Shown here: piece after piece, positions 43,032 through 51,721 of the stretch
How the letters are laid out: each line of letters begins with the position of its first letter
How positions within the stretch are numbered: the first letter of the stretch is position 1
Assembly (NCBI RefSeq): GCF_000025345.1
Contig: NC_013757.1
Span: 3,906,001 to 3,970,000 of the forward strand
DNA: 64,000 nt
Direction of reading: 5' to 3'
Source of the DNA: Geodermatophilus obscurus DSM 43160
GTDB taxonomy: Bacteria > Actinomycetota > Actinomycetes > Mycobacteriales > Geodermatophilaceae
Notes under the pieces: generated by a model
Told to the model about the DNA's origin: nothing
Seen by the model: only the letters and a program-made list of their open reading frames with translations
Databases searched by the model: none
Program-made: the position numbers and the translations under genes

Positions 43032-44066
43032 TCAGAGCGGGCGGACGGCGGCGGTCACCGAGCGCGAGCCCCCCGCCCAGGTCGGCAGCAGCGCCATCTT
43101 GCCGCCCGCCCCGCCGGTGACCACGACGCGCACGTCGTCTGCCGAGGCCGCCACCCGCAGGTCCCCGGCGGCGTAGGCCGGCAGGCCCGCGCGGAACGCC
43201 AGCGCGGACGCCGACGCCCGCAGCAGCGCACTGCCCTGCTCGAAGAGGAACCCGGCCATCCGGTCGGCGCCCCAGCCCTGCTCCCCCAGCAGCGCGGCCA
43301 GCTCCGGCGGCAGCAGCAGGAACTGCTCGCCGTCCCGGAAGCGGCCCGGGTCCCCCGCGGCCATCGCCGCGCCCGCCATCGCCGCCGCAGCCGGACCCAG
43401 CACGGACGGCGGCTCGCGGTACCCCTCACCCGGCAGCACCTCGACCAGCCCACCGACCCCGACCACGGTCACCGCGTCGACGTCCACCCCGAGCCCGCGC
43501 CGCTGGGCCAGCGAGGGCAGCGGGCGGGGCGCCTCCGCCGTGCAGCAGGTGTACTTCGCCGGCGAGCCGATCGTCGCCATGTCCGTCAGCCCGGCGCGCG
43601 CCCCGCCGATCCCGGCGAGGGCGAGGGAGACCGCCCGCCCGACGCCGGCGTTCCCCGCGTTCCCGGTGCCCAGCCCGCCCGCTCCCGAGGTCATCCCGAC
43701 CCGGCGGGCGACCGGCCCGTGCACCAGCACGCCCACCGCCGGCGCCCCGGTCGTCGTCGCGAGGCCGAGCAGGTTGAAGCCCGGCTCCAGCGCCGCCCGG
43801 CACGCCGCCACCACCACCGGGAGCGCGGGCCTCGGGCACCCGGCCAGCACCGCGTACCAGGCCACCGCCCGCACGGTCAGCTCGCCGAACAGCGGCGGCA
43901 CCTGCCCCAGGACGGCGTCCGGGTCGGCGGCCCCGGCCAGCATCGCGTCGAGCCGGGCGGCGGTCGGCGGCACCACCGGCAGCCCGTCGCCGTGCCCCGC
44001 GGCCAGCAGGTCGGCGGCCACCGCTGCCGGATCGGCGGCGTCGGGGAACAGCGGCAGGTCAGGCAC
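43032..44066 (-). CDS. UGSC-cluster protein of unknown function (paralogue 2)
   Basis: The GTG start lies three bases after the previous stop. The 344 residues align along their length with the upstream neighbour (44070-45101). Shared landmarks are GDGLPVVPPTAARLDAML near the N-terminus, the cysteine in LAGCPRPALPVVVAAC, a glycine-rich GMTSGAGGLGTGNAGNAGVGRA, GSPAKYTCCTAEAP, and a C-terminal VVVTGGAGGKMALLP. I do not recognise a family of known function. Its place at the end of an operon with a selenoprotein-flavoprotein fusion and CoA enzymes suggests the two paralogues form a complex or act on the same substrate. Confidence 0.7.
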   Translation of the reverse strand: MPDLPLFPDAADPAAVAADLLAAGHGDGLPVVPPTAARLDAMLAGAADPDAVLGQVPPLFGELTVRAVAWYAVLAGCPRPALPVVVAACRAALEPGFNLLGLATTTGAPAVGVLVHGPVARRVGMTSGAGGLGTGNAGNAGVGRAVSLALAGIGGARAGLTDMATIGSPAKYTCCTAEAPRPLPSLAQRRGLGVDVDAVTVVGVGGLVEVLPGEGYREPPSVLGPAAAAMAGAAMAAGDPGRFRDGEQFLLLPPELAALLGEQGWGADRMAGFLFEQGSALLRASASALAFRAGLPAYAAGDLRVAASADDVRVVVTGGAGGKMALLPTWAGGSRSVTAAVRPL

Positions 44067-44069
44067 GGT

Positions 44070-45101
44070 TCACACGCGGGAGGGGACCGGTCGCGACACC
44101 GCCGCCGTCGCACCGAACGACGGGATCCACACCGAGTGCTTCCCCGCTCCCCCGGCCACCAGCACGTGCAGCATCTCCGGACCGGTGCTCACCGGGTAGG
44201 CGTCGCCTTCGGGCAGGACGCCCCAGTCCTCGAACTGCCGCTGGTTGGCCTCCGACACCTTCGACACCGGGATGCGCGCCCATTCCCACAGCGCGTCCCG
44301 CACCGCGTCGGCCGTCCACCCGTCGCGGGCGAACGTCGCCGCGTGCTCGGGACCGAGCACCAGGAAGTGCGGGCCCTTGACGTACACGTTGTTCGAGCCG
44401 GGCTGGGCCATCGTCCCGGCGATGGTGAGCAGCAGGTCCTCGGCCGTCGTCCCGCCGTGGTCGTTGACGTTGTGCGGCCCCTCGGTCGCCGCGACCGTCA
44501 CCACCGACTCCCCGGGCGCGAAGCCGCGGCGCACCGAAAACGGCGGGAACGGGCTCTCCTCCTCGTTCTCCCCGAAGCAGAACGAGTACTTGGCCGGACT
44601 GCCCTGCGTCGCCCGGTCCATGACGCCCGGGCGCGCCCCTCCGACGTGCGTGGTGACCAGCTGCACCGCCCGGCCGATGACGGCGTTGGCCCGCACGCCC
44701 TGGCCCAGGCAGTTGCTGCCGGAGTTGATGCCGAGCTCCCCGCGCACCGGGCCGTTCACGACGACCATCGGCGCGCACGGGTGGGTCGTCGCCAGCACCC
44801 CGTGCAGGTTGTACTCGGGAGCCTGCAGCGCGCGGACGGCGGCGAGCACCACCGGCAGGTCCGCGGGCCGGCAACCGGCCATCACCGCGTTGGCCGCAAA
44901 GCTCTCCCGGGTCGGCACCAGTCCGGACGGCGGCAGCGGCCCGAGCTCCAGGTCGATGCCGTCCAGCGCGGCCAGCGCCGCCGCCACCCGGGCCGGGGTC
45001 GGCGCCACCAGCGGCAGCCCGTCGCCCCAGCCGCGGCGGTACGCCTCCTCCTGCCAGCTCTCCTCCGTGACCCCGGGCAGGTCGAGCAGTCCGGCGCTCA
45101 C
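44070..45101 (-). CDS. UGSC-cluster protein of unknown function (paralogue 1)
   Basis: The GTG at 45101 overlaps the stop of the flavoprotein-UGSC gene as GTGA. The 343 residues share the plan of the downstream paralogue: GWGDGLPLVAPTPARVAAAL, MAGCRPADLPVVLAA, GINSGSNCLGQGVRANAVIGRA, DRATQGSPAKYSFCFGENEEES, and VLVAGGAGKHSVWIPSFG. Cysteines at the CRP site and the SFCFGEN site might ligate a metal or react with thiols; this is inference. The tight coupling to the selenoprotein gene suggests that they act together. Function unknown. Confidence 0.7.
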   Translation of the reverse strand: MSAGLLDLPGVTEESWQEEAYRRGWGDGLPLVAPTPARVAAALAALDGIDLELGPLPPSGLVPTRESFAANAVMAGCRPADLPVVLAAVRALQAPEYNLHGVLATTHPCAPMVVVNGPVRGELGINSGSNCLGQGVRANAVIGRAVQLVTTHVGGARPGVMDRATQGSPAKYSFCFGENEEESPFPPFSVRRGFAPGESVVTVAATEGPHNVNDHGGTTAEDLLLTIAGTMAQPGSNNVYVKGPHFLVLGPEHAATFARDGWTADAVRDALWEWARIPVSKVSEANQRQFEDWGVLPEGDAYPVSTGPEMLHVLVAGGAGKHSVWIPSFGATAAVSRPVPSRV

Positions 45102-46513
45102 GCCCCTCCCCTCGCCTCGTCGGCCATCCGCAGCAGCTCCGCCGCCGCGCCCTCGATCCGGGCGGCCAGCTCGGCCTCGTTCAGCCCGCCGACCGGGTGC
45201 GGGACGACGACCAGGCGGGGCCGCACCCGGCGCGCCTGGGCCTGCGCCTGCACCAGCGGCAGGAACGTCTCGGTTACCACCAGCGGTGCGACGACGCCAC
45301 GGCGCTCCAGTTCCACCGAGTCGTGGAGACTCCACGACGAGCACGAGCCCTAGTCGCCGACCGCCACCAGCACCATCTTGAAGCGCTGCGACAGCCAGTC
45401 GATGGTGTCCTTGTCCGCCGCGACCGAGGCGCTCTCCTTGGCCGCGAAGCCGAGCTCCGGCAGCTCCCAGTGCGCCTGCAGCCGCTCGCCCAGCCCGCGC
45501 AGCAGCTCGGTCGCGTTCGGCTTGGAGTTGGTGAACAGCGCGACGTCGGTCCACGTCGCCGTGCTGCCGGCGGGCTCCAGCGGCCCGGCGTCGTCCTCCG
45601 GCGGCAGGCCGTACGTGGGGTCGACGATGCGCAGCGACCCGGCCGCGGTCGCGAGCGCCGCGACCGCGGCCTCCCCGGCGGCGCGCCCGTCGGCCTCGGC
45701 GGCGGTCAGCGACTGCTCCGCACCGGCTCGCGCGTCACCGGCCACCAGCACCCCGTGCGACGGCACCAGCCGGCCGTGCTCGTCGGCGGCCAACCCCTCG
45801 ACCAGCCCCTCGGGCCCGCGGCGGTTCACGAAGGGGAACAGCCCGGCCACGGCCAGCTCGCGGTCGCCGTCGCTGGTGCGGACGACGACGCCGGACAGCA
45901 CGCCCTCGCCGCGCAGCGCGGTGACCGTCGCGTCCGGGACCACCTCGACCCGCTCGGCGGCCGCCAGCCGCTCCGCCCGCTCCGGCGACCAGCGCGGCGG
46001 GCCCGGCACCAGCACGGTCACCGCCGACGCCCAGCCGGCCAGCTCGAGCGCCTCCTCCGCCGTCCACTCGTCGTCGCCGAGCACCGCGACCGGGCGCCCG
46101 CGGAACAGCGGGCCGTCGCAGCCGGCGCAGGTGGAGACGCCGCGGCCGACGAGCGCCTCCTCCCCCGGCAGCCCGAGCCGCCCGGGGCCGAGCCCGGTAG
46201 CGACGACGACCGCGCCGGCGCTGACCTCGCCGTCGGAGGTCTCCAGCCGCACCGGCGAGCCCGGGTGCACCCGGGTGACCTCGACGTACGCCAGACGGAC
46301 CCCGGCCCCCTCGGCCGCGGCGGTGAGCGCCGCCATCAGCTCCGGCCCGGTGCCGCCCGGGTGCTCGTGCAGCGCGGTGAGGTTCACCAGCTGACCGCCG
46401 GGGGTCAGCCGGTCGTAGGCGACCACCCGCAGGCCCCGTTCGGCGGCGACCCGCGCGGCGGTCAGCCCGGCGATCCCGGCGCCCACGACAGCGACGTCCC
46501 AGTCGATGCTCAC
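45098..46513 (-). CDS. thioredoxin-reductase-like flavoprotein fused to UGSC selenoprotein, Sec encoded by UAG
   Basis: From GTG 46513 (overlapping the upstream stop) one frame runs 471 codons to TGA 45098, interrupted only by TAG at 45350-45352 (codon 388). Residues 1-290 form an FAD-dependent disulfide reductase: VVGAGIAG (9-16), redox pair CAGC (129-132) and VLVAGDARAG near the end. Its NADPH loop reads LGDDEWTAEEAL and is degenerate. From residue 294 (LRIVDPTYG) the UGSC family follows: ALFTNSKPNATELL, SASVAADKDTIDWL, VLVAVGD-TAG-GSCSSWSLHDSVELERRG, VVVPHPVGGL. The codon at TAG is exactly where the family has Sec or Cys. A hairpin with a GU-bearing loop follows. Termination at TAG would remove the redox centre, so read-through as selenocysteine is the best reading; a nonsense mutation is the alternative. 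Confidence 0.8.
45320..45352 (-). promoter_or_regulatory. UAG codon and bacterial SECIS-like hairpin
   Basis: On the minus strand the TAG codon (45352-45350) is followed after 11 bases by a seven-pair stem, GTCGTGG with CCACGAC (plus-strand 45320-45326 and 45332-45338), closing the five-base loop AGUCU. The loop's GU lies 20-21 bases after the codon. Bacterial SECIS elements need a G in the first loop positions and a spacing in this range; the E. coli fdhF loop is AGGUCU. This would recruit SelB to insert selenocysteine. Confidence 0.65.
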
Positions 46514-47577
46514 GCCTCCACCAGCCCGGTGGAGATCCGCGGCCACAGCGCGTCGGCGCCCTCGGCGGCCAGCTGCCGGCCCAGCTCCCGGCTCCAGTAC
46601 CGCTCGCCGCCGAACTCGTCGCGCCACGACCACAGCCGGCGGGAGAGCTGGCCGAGCTCGTACTCCTTGGTCATGCCGATCGCGCCGTGCGCCTGGTGGG
46701 ACGCACGCGCCGCGATCGTCGCCGCCTCGCCGGCCGCCGCCTTCGCCGCCGCGACGTCGAGGAACGACGGGTCGGGACGGGCGTTCAGCGCGGCCACCTG
46801 GACGGCGAGACCGGCCAGCTGCGCCTCCTCGGCGATGCTGACCAGGTGCGCCTGCACCGCCTGGAACCGGGCGACCGGGCGACCGAACTGCTGCCGCTCG
46901 CCGGTGTAGCGGACGGTCAGCTCGGCCACCCGCGCCAGCGCCCCGGCGATCTGCGCGGAGCGGGCCAGCGCGCCGCGCAGCCGCAGCGCCGCGGCGTCCA
47001 CCCCGGGTGGGGCCGGCGCCACCGCGTCGTCGGGCAGCTCGACGTCGTCCCACACCAGGGTGTCGCGCGGCTCGGCGGCGAGGTTGCGGCCGGGCGTGAC
47101 GGTCGCGGCGGCGGGAGGCGCGGAGACAACGAACCGCTGCCCGCCGCTCTCGGCGAAGGCGACCACCCGGTCGCTGCGCCCGCCCCACGGCACCCGGGAC
47201 AGCCGCGCGGAGAACCGCCGGCCGGTGAGCTCGACGGCATCACCGGGCGCGCCGACGGCCACCGACAGCGGGCCCTCGGGCAGCTCCATCCCGGCCGCGC
47301 CCAGCGCCCAGCCGCCGAGCAGCCCGGACTCGGCCAGCGGCACCGGGGCGGCGAACCGGCCGGCGACGGTGAGCAGCGCACAGGCGTCGGCGACGTCCCC
47401 GCCGGAGCCGCCGGCCTCCTCGGGCACCGACACCAGCGGGAAGCCGGACTCGGTGAGCGCCGTCCAGAGCCGCTCGCTCCACCCGGTCGCCTCCGCGGCG
47501 ACGACGTCCTGGGGCGTGCACAGGTCGCGGAACAGGCCGGTGGCGACCTCGGTCAGCACCGTGCGGTCCTCGCTCAT
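46510..47577 (-). CDS. acyl-CoA dehydrogenase (short form)
   Basis: The ATG at 47577 overlaps the stop of the preceding dehydrogenase gene as ATGA. The 355 residues follow the acyl-CoA dehydrogenase plan: N-terminal helices with VSVPEEAGGSGGD, a beta middle domain, and the C-terminal helical domain with RYTGERQQFGRPVARFQAVQAHL, ASHQAHGAIGMTKEYEL and LSRRLW. The motif usually holding FAD and substrate (WITN/WVTG) is poorly kept, as in the alternative subunits of heteromeric ACADs. It therefore may pair with the upstream dehydrogenase as an FadE-type heterotetramer of the kind used in steroid side-chain breakdown; the pairing is inferred. Confidence 0.85.
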   Translation of the reverse strand: MSEDRTVLTEVATGLFRDLCTPQDVVAAEATGWSERLWTALTESGFPLVSVPEEAGGSGGDVADACALLTVAGRFAAPVPLAESGLLGGWALGAAGMELPEGPLSVAVGAPGDAVELTGRRFSARLSRVPWGGRSDRVVAFAESGGQRFVVSAPPAAATVTPGRNLAAEPRDTLVWDDVELPDDAVAPAPPGVDAAALRLRGALARSAQIAGALARVAELTVRYTGERQQFGRPVARFQAVQAHLVSIAEEAQLAGLAVQVAALNARPDPSFLDVAAAKAAAGEAATIAARASHQAHGAIGMTKEYELGQLSRRLWSWRDEFGGERYWSRELGRQLAAEGADALWPRISTGLVEA

Positions 47578-48710
47578 GCGGACAGTCCCTTCGCGGCGAC
47601 CGAGCGGAGGATCTCGGTGGTGCCGCCGCGCAGCGTGTACGACGGCGAGGTCAGCACCGCCTCGGCGAGCAGTGCCTGGAACAGCGAGCCCGAGCCCTGG
47701 TCGAGCTCGGTCTCCGCGGCGTCGCGCAGCGCCTCGATGAGGTCCTGCTCGAAGCGGGTGCCGACGTCCTTGACCAGCGCCGCCTCGACCACCGGGGCGC
47801 TCCCGCCGTCGAGGGCGCGGGCGACCGACAGCGACAGCTGCCGGATCGCCCGGAACCGGGCCGCCATCCGGCCGAGGACGACGGCCTCCTCGCCGGAGAA
47901 GCCGGCCCCGCGCTCGCGCAGCCACTCGCGCAGCACCGGGAAGGTCGACAGCCAGCGGTCGGGGCCGCTGCGCTCATAGGCCAGCTCGCTGGTCACCTGC
48001 TGCCAGCCGGAGCCGAGCTCGCCGAGCACCATGTCGTCGGGCACGAACACGTCCTCCAGCGCCACCTCGTTGAAGTGGTGGCTGCCGTCGAGGTACGGGA
48101 TCGGCGAGATGCGCACGCCCGGCGCGGACAGGTCGACGATCAGCTGGGAGAGGCCCGCGTGCTTGCGGCCCTCCTCGACCGGGGAGGTGCGGCACAGCAC
48201 GGCGAAGAAGTGGTTGTGGTGGGCCTCGCTGGTCCACACCTTGGTGCCGGTGACCGTCCAGCCACCCTCGGCCCGGGTGGCCCTGGTGCGCACGGAGGCG
48301 AGGTCGGAGCCGGAGTCCGGCTCGCTCATGCCGAGGCTGAAGTAGACCTCGCCCGCGGCGATGCCCGGCAGGAAGCGCTGCCGCTGCTCCTCGGTGCCGA
48401 AGTGCAGCAGCGCCGGCGCGGTCTGCCGGTCGGCGACGAAGTGCGCGCCGATGGGGGCGCCGGCGGCGAGCAGCTCCTCGGCGACGAGGAACCGGTCGGC
48501 GGCGCTGCGGCCGTGCCCGCCGTACCGGGGCGGGATCGCCATGCCGACCCAGCCGCGCTTGGCCAGCGTGCGGGAGAACTCCGGGTCGTGCCGGCCGGCG
48601 AACCCGAGCGCGGGCCGGTGCCCGGCGGGGAGCTCGGCGGCGAGGAACTCGCGCACCTCGGCGCGCAATGCCTCCTCGGCCGGGGTGAGCACGGTCGGCG
48701 CGAACTGCAC
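47574..48710 (-). CDS. acyl-CoA dehydrogenase
   Basis: The 378 residues contain FSLGMSEPDSGSDLASVRTRA (FAD-pyrophosphate loop), WTVTGTKVWTSEAHHNHFFAVL, HHFNEVALEDVFVP and a C-terminal SPSYTLRGGTTEILRSVAAKGL. The last motif carries the usual G-T-x-E-I region binding CoA and FAD. It oxidises an acyl-CoA to the 2,3-enoyl-CoA. It is followed by a second, shorter dehydrogenase with a four-base overlap, so the two are probably subunits of one enzyme. Confidence 0.88.
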   Translation of the reverse strand: MQFAPTVLTPAEEALRAEVREFLAAELPAGHRPALGFAGRHDPEFSRTLAKRGWVGMAIPPRYGGHGRSAADRFLVAEELLAAGAPIGAHFVADRQTAPALLHFGTEEQRQRFLPGIAAGEVYFSLGMSEPDSGSDLASVRTRATRAEGGWTVTGTKVWTSEAHHNHFFAVLCRTSPVEEGRKHAGLSQLIVDLSAPGVRISPIPYLDGSHHFNEVALEDVFVPDDMVLGELGSGWQQVTSELAYERSGPDRWLSTFPVLREWLRERGAGFSGEEAVVLGRMAARFRAIRQLSLSVARALDGGSAPVVEAALVKDVGTRFEQDLIEALRDAAETELDQGSGSLFQALLAEAVLTSPSYTLRGGTTEILRSVAAKGLSA

Positions 48711-48773: not shown

Positions 48774-49511
48774 TCAGGCGGTCTCGCGCCGCCGCTGCGA
48801 CCACATCTGGGTGGCCCGCTCGAAGTGCAGCGCGGCCTCCCAGCCGATCCCGGGCGGGCCGGCCTCGGTACGGAAGGAGCGGACCGCCTCGCGGGCCAGC
48901 TCCGGGTCCTTGGCGGCGCGGCCGGCGAGCTCCAGGGCGAGGTCCTCGACCTGGTCGTCGGGCACGGCCTTCCAGGCCAGGCCGATCTCCGCGGCGCGCA
49001 CGCCGTCGATCTCCTCGCTGAACAGTCCCATCGCGGCGGTGGCCTCGCGGCCCGCCGTCCGGCTGCTGATCGTGAAGTAGCCGCCGCCGGGGTGCAGGCC
49101 GATGCGCAGGAACCCGGCGAGCAGCCGGGCGCTCTCGGAGACGATGCGCAGGTCGGTGGAGAGGGCCAGGTTGATCCCCGCGCCGACCGCGGCGCCGCGG
49201 ACGGCGGCGATGGTCGGCACCTGCAGCGTGCCCACCCGGCGGAAGGCGGTGTAGACCGCGCCGAGCTCCTTGTAGGTCTTGTCCTCGGCCTGGTCGCTGC
49301 CCGGCGTCCAGCGCCGGCGGTCCGCGCCGGAGCAGAAGGTGCCGCCCGCGCCCCGGACGACGGCCGCGCCGACCGCCGGGTCGGCGTCCACCTCGTCGCA
49401 CAGCTCCGACAGCTGCAGCCCCATCTCCGGGGTCAGCCCGTTCTTGACCTCGGGCGAGTCGACCGTGACCACGGCCACGCCGCCGTGCCGCTCCAACTGG
49501 ATCTGTCCCAC
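48774..49511 (-). CDS. enoyl-CoA hydratase/isomerase
   Basis: The start is GTG 49511; a much longer in-frame extension crosses the next gene and is rejected. The 245 residues show the crotonase fold: VAVVTVDSPEVKNGL, RGAGGTFCSGADRRRW (first oxyanion-hole segment), AAVRGAAVGAGINLALSTDLRI (second), and FLRIGLHPGGGYF. One catalytic glutamate of typical hydratases is replaced by glycine-rich sequence, so isomerase or another crotonase reaction is possible. It lies between the CoA ligase and the dehydrogenases, consistent with beta-oxidation-like chemistry. Confidence 0.82.
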   Translation of the reverse strand: MGQIQLERHGGVAVVTVDSPEVKNGLTPEMGLQLSELCDEVDADPAVGAAVVRGAGGTFCSGADRRRWTPGSDQAEDKTYKELGAVYTAFRRVGTLQVPTIAAVRGAAVGAGINLALSTDLRIVSESARLLAGFLRIGLHPGGGYFTISSRTAGREATAAMGLFSEEIDGVRAAEIGLAWKAVPDDQVEDLALELAGRAAKDPELAREAVRSFRTEAGPPGIGWEAALHFERATQMWSQRRRETA

Positions 49512-49576
49512 GCTGGGTGTCCTGCCTCTCTGCTGGGGTGGTCTGGGGAGCCTCGGAGTCTGGTGGCAGGGCCTGC

Positions 49577-51721
49577 CTACTCGCCCACCGGCTCCCGCGA
49601 GCCGGTGGTGCGCACCAGGACGTCGACGGCGGTCGCCCCCCGGCCGCGGGGCGCGACGATGAGCGGGTTCACCTCGAACTCGGCCAGCCGGTCGCCCGCG
49701 GCCACCGCCGCCTGCGAGAGCCGGACGACGGCGTCGACCGCGGCCGGCACGTCGGCGGGCTCGGCGCCGCGGAAGCCGGCCAGCAGCGGCCACGCCCGCA
49801 GGCCGCGCAGCATCGCCCACGCCTCCTCCGGCGAGACCGGGGCCAGCGCCGAGGCGAGGTCGCGGTAGAGCTCGGTGGTCACCCCGCCGAGGCCGACGGT
49901 CACCACGGGCGGGAACCCGTCGCGGCCGGCGGTGACCGCGAGGATCAGCTCGGTGCCCGGCGGGACGAGCTCCTGCACGTGCACGCCCTCGACGCCGGGG
50001 ACGTGGTGCCGGCGCGCGGCGTCGAGCAGCTCGGCGAAGACGCCCGCCGCCTCGTCGGGGCCCACGCCGACCCGCACCCCGCCGACCTCGCTCTTGTGCG
50101 CCAGGTCCGCGGCGGCGAGCTTGAGCACGCCCCGGCCGGGCAACGCGGCGACCGCCTCGCGCGCGGCCTCCGGGCTGGTCACCAGCGTGGACGCCGGCTG
50201 CCCGATGCCGATCGACCGCAGCAGCGCCGCGCCGTCCACCACCGGCCCCTCCAGCAGCGCGCGCACCTCGGCGGCCGGGACGTCGGGCACTGCCGGCAGC
50301 GGCGGCGGCGTGCCCCGGTGCCGGGGCGGGGCCAGCCGCGCGGCGACGCGGGCGAGGTCGCCGACCGAGCCGAACACCGGGACGCCGGCCTCGCGGAAGA
50401 CCCGGCGGCCCTCGACGGTCAGCTCCTGCCCGGCGATCCAGCCGACCAGCAGCGGGCAGCGCAACTTGGCCGCGGTGGCGACGAGGTCCTCGGCCAGCCG
50501 GGCGCCGGCGTCGCCGACGACCATGGTGACCAGGACGGCGACGACGTCGACGGCGTCGTCCTCGGCGATGATCCGGCAGACGTCGCCGAAGGCGTGCGCC
50601 CCCTGGTTGAACAGCTGCGCGGTGACGTCGACCGGGTTGGCCAGCGCACCGAAGGGCGGGATCAGCGGGCGCAGCCGCGCCTGGGTGGCGGCCGACAGCT
50701 CGGGCATCTGGAGGCCGACGTCCTCGCACTGGTCGGCGGCGAGGCTGCCGGCCCCGCCGGAGGTCGTGACGACGGCGACCCGCGGCCCCTCGGCCGGCTT
50801 CCCGGCGGCCAGCACCGCCGCGACCGCGAGCAGCTCGTCGATGTCGTCGACCAGCACCACGCCGTACCGCCGGGAGGTGAGCACGAAGGCGACGTCGTCG
50901 CCGAGCATCGAGCCGGTGTGGCTGGCCACCGCCCGGCGCCCGGCGCTGGACCGGCCCGAGCGCAGCACCACCAGGGACTTGCCGGCGAGCTGCGCGCGGC
51001 GGGCCAGCTCGGCGTAGGCCGCGCCGTTCCCGGTGGCCTCCACGTAGAGCATCAGCACCCGCACCGTCGGGTCGGCCAGCAGGTGCAGGGACACCTCGGT
51101 CAGGTCGAGGTCGGCCTGGTTACCGGTGCTGAACCACGCCGCCAGGCCCAGGCCCATGTCGGTGGCCAGGTCGAGCACCGAGCCGCCGACGGCGCCGCTC
51201 TGCCCGACGTAGGCCACCCCGCTGCCGGAGGTCAGCGGCCGGTCGGCGGCGGCGGTGAAGGTGGCGACCACGCCGGTGGGCGCGTAGAGGAAACCCTGGC
51301 AGTTGGGTCCGACGACGCGGACGCCGGTCTCCCGGGCCACCGCGGCCAGCCGCTGCTGCAGCGCCACGCCCTCCGGGCCGACCTCGGCGAAGCCGGAGGC
51401 GTAGACGACCGCCGCCCGGGCGCCGACCGCGGCGGCCTGCCGGATCGCGTCCTCCACCCGGTCGGCCGCGACCAGCACGAGCACCAGGTCGACCGGGCCC
51501 GGGACGTCGGCCAGCGCCGGGTAGCAGCGCCGGCCGACCAGTTCCTCGTAGTTCGGGTTGACCGGGTAGACGCCGCCCTCGTACCCGTGCTCGACCAGGT
51601 AGCGCAGCGGCCGGGACATCAGGTTCTCCGACCGGCCCGAGATGCCGAGCAGCGCGATCCCCCGCGGTCGCAGCAGCGCCTGCAAACCGCCGTCCATCGG
51701 GTCCGGCGTCGGCACGGTCAT
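49577..51721 (-). CDS. ADP-forming acyl-CoA synthetase (NDP-forming, CoA-binding plus ATP-grasp)
   Basis: The 714 residues contain a CoA-binding Rossmann domain (RGIALLGISGRSENL), a succinyl-CoA-ligase-like domain with the phosphohistidine region VASHTGSMLGDD, and a C-terminal ATP-grasp domain (GVLKLAAADLAHKSEVGGVRVGV; VHVQELVPPGTELILAV; EFEVNPLIV). The enzyme makes acyl-CoA from acid, CoA and ATP with ADP release. It is the first gene of the operon and is divergent from a TetR gene with a shared operator, so it is likely the main regulated step. Confidence 0.87.
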   Translation of the reverse strand: MTVPTPDPMDGGLQALLRPRGIALLGISGRSENLMSRPLRYLVEHGYEGGVYPVNPNYEELVGRRCYPALADVPGPVDLVLVLVAADRVEDAIRQAAAVGARAAVVYASGFAEVGPEGVALQQRLAAVARETGVRVVGPNCQGFLYAPTGVVATFTAAADRPLTSGSGVAYVGQSGAVGGSVLDLATDMGLGLAAWFSTGNQADLDLTEVSLHLLADPTVRVLMLYVEATGNGAAYAELARRAQLAGKSLVVLRSGRSSAGRRAVASHTGSMLGDDVAFVLTSRRYGVVLVDDIDELLAVAAVLAAGKPAEGPRVAVVTTSGGAGSLAADQCEDVGLQMPELSAATQARLRPLIPPFGALANPVDVTAQLFNQGAHAFGDVCRIIAEDDAVDVVAVLVTMVVGDAGARLAEDLVATAAKLRCPLLVGWIAGQELTVEGRRVFREAGVPVFGSVGDLARVAARLAPPRHRGTPPPLPAVPDVPAAEVRALLEGPVVDGAALLRSIGIGQPASTLVTSPEAAREAVAALPGRGVLKLAAADLAHKSEVGGVRVGVGPDEAAGVFAELLDAARRHHVPGVEGVHVQELVPPGTELILAVTAGRDGFPPVVTVGLGGVTTELYRDLASALAPVSPEEAWAMLRGLRAWPLLAGFRGAEPADVPAAVDAVVRLSQAAVAAGDRLAEFEVNPLIVAPRGRGATAVDVLVRTTGSREPVGE

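Follow-up and report, generated by a model that had tools for sequence, protein, structure and literature searches.

Within a 64,000-nucleotide stretch of the Geodermatophilus obscurus DSM 43160 genome (contig NC_013757.1, positions 3,906,001 to 3,970,000; hereafter the window), an in-frame TAG at 45352–45350 occupies the selenocysteine (Sec) position of a UGSC domain. Judging from the sequence data, we consider it very likely (probability about 0.97) that this codon is read by a tRNA-Sec with the anticodon CUA, which SelB is predicted to deliver at a hairpin downstream of the codon. G. obscurus is a soil actinobacterium, and its genome consists of one contig of 5,322,497 bases. The original prediction, that UAG serves as a selenocysteine codon in a UGSC-family protein, is supported by the CUA tRNA-Sec and the sel genes of this genome and by the match between codon and anticodon in its relatives. 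The codon lies in a gene that fuses a thioredoxin reductase (TrxR)-like part to the UGSC domain and has the following features.

45098..46513, minus strand: TrxR-like/UGSC fusion gene, 471 amino acids with TAG as Sec, GTG start and TGA stop
45671..46501, minus strand: thioredoxin-reductase-like FAD domain, residues 5–281 (profile match and alignment)
46118..46129, minus strand: CAGC, residues 129–132, at the CxxC position of thioredoxin reductases in the alignment to 5mh4
45128..45628, minus strand: UGSC domain, residues 296–462 (Pfam match)
45350..45352, minus strand: codon 388, a TAG, predicted to encode the Sec of U-G-S-C (frame and alignment of relatives)
45320..45338, minus strand: SECIS-like hairpin with a stem of 8 bp and a triloop GUC, +12 to +30 after the TAG

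The minus-strand frame from 46513 to 45098 contains a single internal stop in 471 codons. This stop, the TAG at codon 388, is the first position of the U-G-S-C motif (VAVGD-TAG-GSCSSWS) and is followed by 83 sense codons before the TGA stop. Reading the frame confirmed the earlier claim that it is broken solely at the residue where UGSC proteins carry Sec or Cys, with 83 stop-free codons thereafter.

The TrxR-like part matches Pfam Pyr_redox_2 (69.4 bits, cut-off 26.1). The product differs from thioredoxin reductase (TIGR01292, 5mh4) in scoring below the TIGR01292 equivalog level (159.4 against a curated cut-off of 343.45), in the added C-terminal UGSC domain, and in the replacement of the usual NADPH-binding letters, as seen in the alignment to 5mh4. 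Several of the 120 database proteins listed as matches (P0124–P0243) bear the name thioredoxin reductase (NADPH).

The UGSC domain scores 128.0 bits with its Pfam family (PF24696, gathering cut-off 25). With C in place of U, the query reaches 107.1 bits with the NCBIfam equivalog NF041046, below the curated cut-off of 125. In the available part of PMC2398784, UGSC is a selenoprotein family from the GOS survey. The product shares the U-G-S-C motif and the Pfam domain with this family (PF24696, NF041046) and differs from it in the fusion to a TrxR-like domain and in the TAG that replaces TGA. A further difference concerns the fold, which is flavodoxin-like alpha/beta in the structure predicted for the domain (pLDDT 87.3, pTM 0.83), whereas the same part of PMC2398784 holds a Trx-like fold to be likely for the family.

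The original prediction had implied a tRNA-Sec with a CUA anticodon together with selA, selB and selD, and the genome holds all four side by side. The tRNA-Sec at 1689368–1689459 scores 65.1 bits with Rfam RF01852 (cut-off 47), and its anticodon is CUA (CTA in ARAGORN) in the alignment to the covariance model. It is adjoined by selA (TIGR00474, 402.8 bits, cut-off 267.9), selB (TIGR00475, 277.4 bits, cut-off 242.25), and selD (TIGR00476, 381.5 bits, cut-off 125). Because the CUA anticodon pairs with UAG, the TAG of the TrxR-UGSC gene is predicted to be read as Sec. A search of the genome for further TAG-coded candidates, covering the UGSC and molybdopterin oxidoreductase families, returned two more genes.

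G000:C1:2512049-2512549: second UGSC gene, stand-alone, with in-frame TAG (EALAD-TAG-GSCTSC)
G000:C1:364687-366615: formate dehydrogenase with in-frame TAG (ARI-TAG-HS)

Within known selenoprotein families, TAG thus stands at the Sec site of three G. obscurus genes, two for UGSC proteins and one for a formate dehydrogenase. By a rough count, in which ORFs were picked by a composition rule, 12 of 42 ORFs end in TAG, and UAG probably also terminates ordinary genes in this organism.

One scan of named genomes for relatives yielded 24 UGSC loci. The Sec-site codon is TAG in all 16 Geodermatophilaceae (L010–L025), TGA in all five Pseudonocardia (L026–L030) and in both metagenome-assembled genomes (L031, L032), and TGC in Nocardioides (L033). 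The tRNA-Sec anticodon was tested in 11 of these genomes, including 5 of the 16 Geodermatophilaceae; it is TCA in 5/5 Pseudonocardia and CTA in 5/5 tested Geodermatophilaceae, and no tRNA-Sec was detected in the Nocardioides genome at E <= 1e-9. The codon at the Sec site of the homologues is hence TAG, TGA or TGC, in step with the anticodon of their own tRNA-Sec. In a genome from another family of the class (L085), a stand-alone UGSC gene has TGA where the stand-alone copy of G. obscurus has TAG.

The frame downstream of the TAG is exactly 83 codons long in 17 of 17 TAG sequences, the window included. Pooled omega between the window and the 16 relatives is 0.27 for 58 codons after the TAG and 0.33 for 60 codons before it; the codons after the TAG are under purifying selection, similar to those before. 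Among degenerate codons with an invariant residue, those that vary number 2 of 9 at +1 to +11, 23 of 33 at +12 to +70 and, over the 40 codons before the TAG, 10 of 17.

The distance from the TAG to the loop of the hairpin is 19 nt, within the 16–37 nt given for SECIS hairpins (PMC10778597), and the loop contains GU. Its folding energy is nothing unusual (z = −1.0, with 34 of 200 shuffles folding equally well), as it is in all three hairpins judged (z −1.0, −0.3, and 0.0), so that one sequence alone would not prove its SECIS-like nature. In a sample of 41 UGSC rows (25 distinct sequences with 6 distinct hairpins), standard pairs occupy 200 of 200 pair cells, including one double change from G-C to C-G; when the partners are shifted, the number falls to 28–108 of 200. 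The hairpin of the formate dehydrogenases shows 132 of 133 standard pairs against 38 to 87 with shifted partners (31 rows, 19 distinct). The letters of the UGSC hairpin are the same in 21 of 22 TrxR-UGSC genes (17 with TAG including the window, 5 with TGA). The hairpin claimed after the TAG exists, with pairing conserved across 25 distinct UGSC sequences; the single sequence from which it was called SECIS-like was insufficient for that judgment.

Public databases annotate the TAG as a stop; among 120 listed database proteins out of 316, coverage of the query never exceeds 82%, the point at which the TAG stands, and none of those listed is carried beyond the UAG. Were the codon a genuine stop, or the result of a nonsense mutation, the TrxR-like protein would end there and the UGSC tail would be dead or separate. 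We regard this as extremely unlikely, given that TAG stands at the identical place in 17/17 sequences with purifying selection behind it, and that other lineages have TGA or TGC for this residue. A sequencing error that made TAG from TGC, TGT or TGA is refuted, its probability being practically nil, by the TAG in 16 other genome records and in other genes.

A UAG codon and a CUA anticodon are also what pyrrolysine decoding uses, and ARAGORN calls the CUA tRNA a tRNA-Pyl; it attaches this label to L001:1501-1596 and to the other CUA tRNA-Sec loci because of the CTA anticodon. We give pyrrolysine almost no weight. The best PylS match (TIGR02367) in the G. obscurus genome reaches 25.8 bits, below the cut-off of 178.15, in a search with 14 control genomes including Methanosarcina acetivorans, one of which passes. 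The tRNA, moreover, fits the covariance model of tRNA-Sec (65.1 bits) and adjoins selA, selB and selD, and homologues have Cys or UGA at the TAG position. Serine or cysteine may replace Sec at low selenium, and this general possibility would apply here if the tRNA-Sec read the UAG but often inserted serine or cysteine. We judge such insertion very unlikely, as the matches to SelA and SelD are free of internal stops.

If UAG is read as Sec by the CUA tRNA-Sec, the steps would follow the known Sec pathway. The tRNA-Sec would be charged with serine, and SelA would convert the seryl-tRNA-Sec using selenophosphate made by SelD. SelB would then carry the tRNA-Sec to the UAG, competing there with RF1. 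Elsewhere UAG would retain its meaning as a stop, so the hairpin would mark which UAG is Sec. The predicted product is a 471-amino acid enzyme in which electrons probably travel from the flavin and CAGC of the TrxR-like part to the Sec388/Cys391 pair of the UGSC part, and its gene stands in a gene cluster of acyl-CoA metabolism. The neighboring genes are as follows.

43032..44066, minus strand: second downstream gene, without assigned family (neighborhood comparison)
44070..45101, minus strand: gene after UGSC, no known Pfam family, overlapping the UGSC gene by 4 nt
46510..47925, minus strand: open frame upstream of the UGSC gene, acyl-CoA dehydrogenase domains at residues 124–430 (profile match)
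47574..48710, minus strand: acyl-CoA dehydrogenase (neighborhood comparison)
48774..49862, minus strand: frame with enoyl-CoA hydratase/isomerase domain (neighborhood comparison)
49577..51721, minus strand: acetate-CoA-ligase-like gene of the same cluster (profile match and neighborhood comparison)

In all 24 loci a homologue of the gene at 44070–45101 follows UGSC, even in those in which no TrxR part was found. This gene and that at 43032–44066 are probably related, since both match the same stretch in several distant loci. UGSC clusters of the Geodermatophilaceae contain acyl-CoA dehydrogenases, an enoyl-CoA hydratase and a CoA ligase. Locus L025 gave no match to the dehydrogenases, and L013, L019 and L023 gave none to the second of them. 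Three Pseudonocardia loci hold the TrxR and UGSC parts in separate frames (L027 read directly; L028 and L029 from a short tblastn range), which suggests that the two parts work as partners. From the acyl-CoA genes around the TrxR-UGSC gene, we infer that it may encode a reductase that depends on Sec and serves an acyl-CoA pathway.

UAG-coded Sec had been valued as new, a valuation that does not hold, as it is already published for Geodermatophilaceae according to PMC5330540. The available part of that paper reports a CUA tRNA-Sec in three Geodermatophilaceae genomes, credits Mukai 2016 with reporting for this family two kinds of UAG-coded selenoprotein, formate dehydrogenases and proteins with the UGSC motif, and adds an AhpC. 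It thereby states in print what the original prediction attributed to Mukai 2016 on UAG-programmed Sec in Geodermatophilus and Blastococcus, and by this account the UAG-coded Sec described here is already known; for the G. obscurus genome itself, it has probably been published as well. As far as PMC5330540 describes the Geodermatophilus/Blastococcus system of Mukai et al. 2016, the CUA tRNA-Sec, the UAG site, the selenoprotein families and the bacterial family are the same, and the mechanism is no different. What is added here is a family-wide census, lineages whose tRNA-Sec is exclusively UCA, and a single genome that carries the two kinds of tRNA-Sec. Among the listed matches in the open-licence literature, there was no report of two Sec codons in one genome. 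Genomes with two tRNA-Sec are on record in PMC5330540, whose available part makes no mention of differing anticodons in them.

At E <= 1e-9, tRNA-Sec was found in 108 of 112 Geodermatophilaceae genomes, with 110 genes in all, 102 with the anticodon CTA and 8 with TCA. Among the 108 genomes, 101 have CUA and seven have UCA only (G066, G068, G069, G070, G072, G073 and G074; genera g5, g6 and g7); the eighth TCA gene is the second tRNA-Sec gene of a Geodermatophilus genome, G058. The anticodon arm reads GGC-CTCTAAA-GCC in 102/102 CUA tRNAs and GGT-CTTCAAA-ACC in 8/8 UCA tRNAs, the closing pair of the anticodon stem changing together with the anticodon in all 110. Genome G037 has two tRNA-Sec genes (contigs C25 and C168), both CUA.

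UGSC matches in the family number 95 in 54 genomes, of which 72 have one TAG, 23 no stop and none TGA; these stops are those in the stop column of the search program, with the codon read directly in part of the loci. The formate dehydrogenases gave 125 rows from 101 genomes. One TAG is present in 118 of them, and the aligned ranges of the other seven, four of which are pieces in G079, do not span the Sec codon. Two formate dehydrogenase regions of G079 (contigs C4 and C12) are split around the Sec site, and one piece has two TGA. No formate dehydrogenase match was found in the UCA-only genera g5–g7.

A tree of SelA, built on 33 rows (31 of them different) from loci long enough to hold SelA, places the 25 CTA rows on one side of a branch with support 100/99. 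The eight TCA rows comprise six from four genomes of the family, next to the CTA rows, and two plasmid rows. The tree requires one anticodon change, and most likely the Sec codon moved from UGA to UAG once, within the Geodermatophilaceae, along with the tRNA anticodon. This would be a natural change of the Sec codon in which codon and anticodon were altered in step, the SECIS-like hairpin and the proteins staying unchanged. As the family holds both tRNA states and the probable branch of the change, the movement of a Sec codon is open to direct study. On the Arthrobacter and Tsukamurella plasmids (L262, L263), tRNA-Sec, selA, selB, selD and formate dehydrogenase occur together.

The genome with both tRNAs, G058, combines CUA and UCA tRNA-Sec with TAG and TGA at Sec sites, the two marks that dual decoding would leave in the sequence. 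Its contig C11 holds a sel cluster with the CUA tRNA-Sec, and its UGSC and formate dehydrogenase genes are TAG-coded. Near one end of contig C17 (69,133 bases) lies a UCA tRNA-Sec (81.8 bits) with an AhpD-like gene beside it.

L133:1169-1263 (G058 contig C17): UCA tRNA-Sec
L133:1579-2157: AhpD-like ORF, 192 codons, TGA at codon 98, 315-base gap from the UCA tRNA-Sec

Given the two tRNA-Sec and the TGA-coded AhpD-like gene, two stop codons may be read as Sec in G058. With odds a little above even, we favor the view that the inherited CUA tRNA-Sec would read UAG and that a second one, brought in on an IS-rich island along with a UGA-coded AhpD-like selenoprotein of its own, would read UGA. The UCA tRNA is identical to a Tsukamurella plasmid tRNA-Sec at 81 of 93 positions and to the CUA tRNA of G058 at 68 of 94, and being nearer to the former it was probably acquired. 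The region around it has lower GC and contains transposases. At a distance of 34 kb from the tRNA, part of C17 shows 81–87% DNA identity with 2 of 25 congeners (G042 and G053), which makes it probable that the contig comes from the genus; the other 23 gave short or weak matches only, and C17 may instead be a misassembly or a contamination from a close relative. If its acquisition is real, a lineage that left UGA for UAG would have regained UGA through a portable pair of tRNA and selenoprotein using the host SelA, SelB and SelD, and G058 would be a test case for two Sec codons in one cell with one SelA/SelB set.

Read through its TGA, the ORF scores 112.6 bits with TIGR01926 (cut-off 81.8) in a match that spans the TGA, which identifies the predicted product as an AhpD-like peroxidase-related protein. 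The TGA is the U of a CxxU motif, CFYU, as in the name of the selenoprotein family NF041238 (AhpD_rel_CFYUT); with NF041238 itself, the ORF scores 51.8, below the cut-off of 175. A 10-nt spacer follows the TGA, and then a hairpin with the loop GUU and ordinary energy (z −0.3). In 17 aligned homologues, taken from 120 listed of 233, the residue at the TGA site is Cys in nine, Trp in seven and Leu in one. The homologues with Trp at this Sec/Cys site are P0004, P0005, P0007, P0008, P0009, P0016 and P0020, in which the gene caller has perhaps rendered a TGA as Trp.
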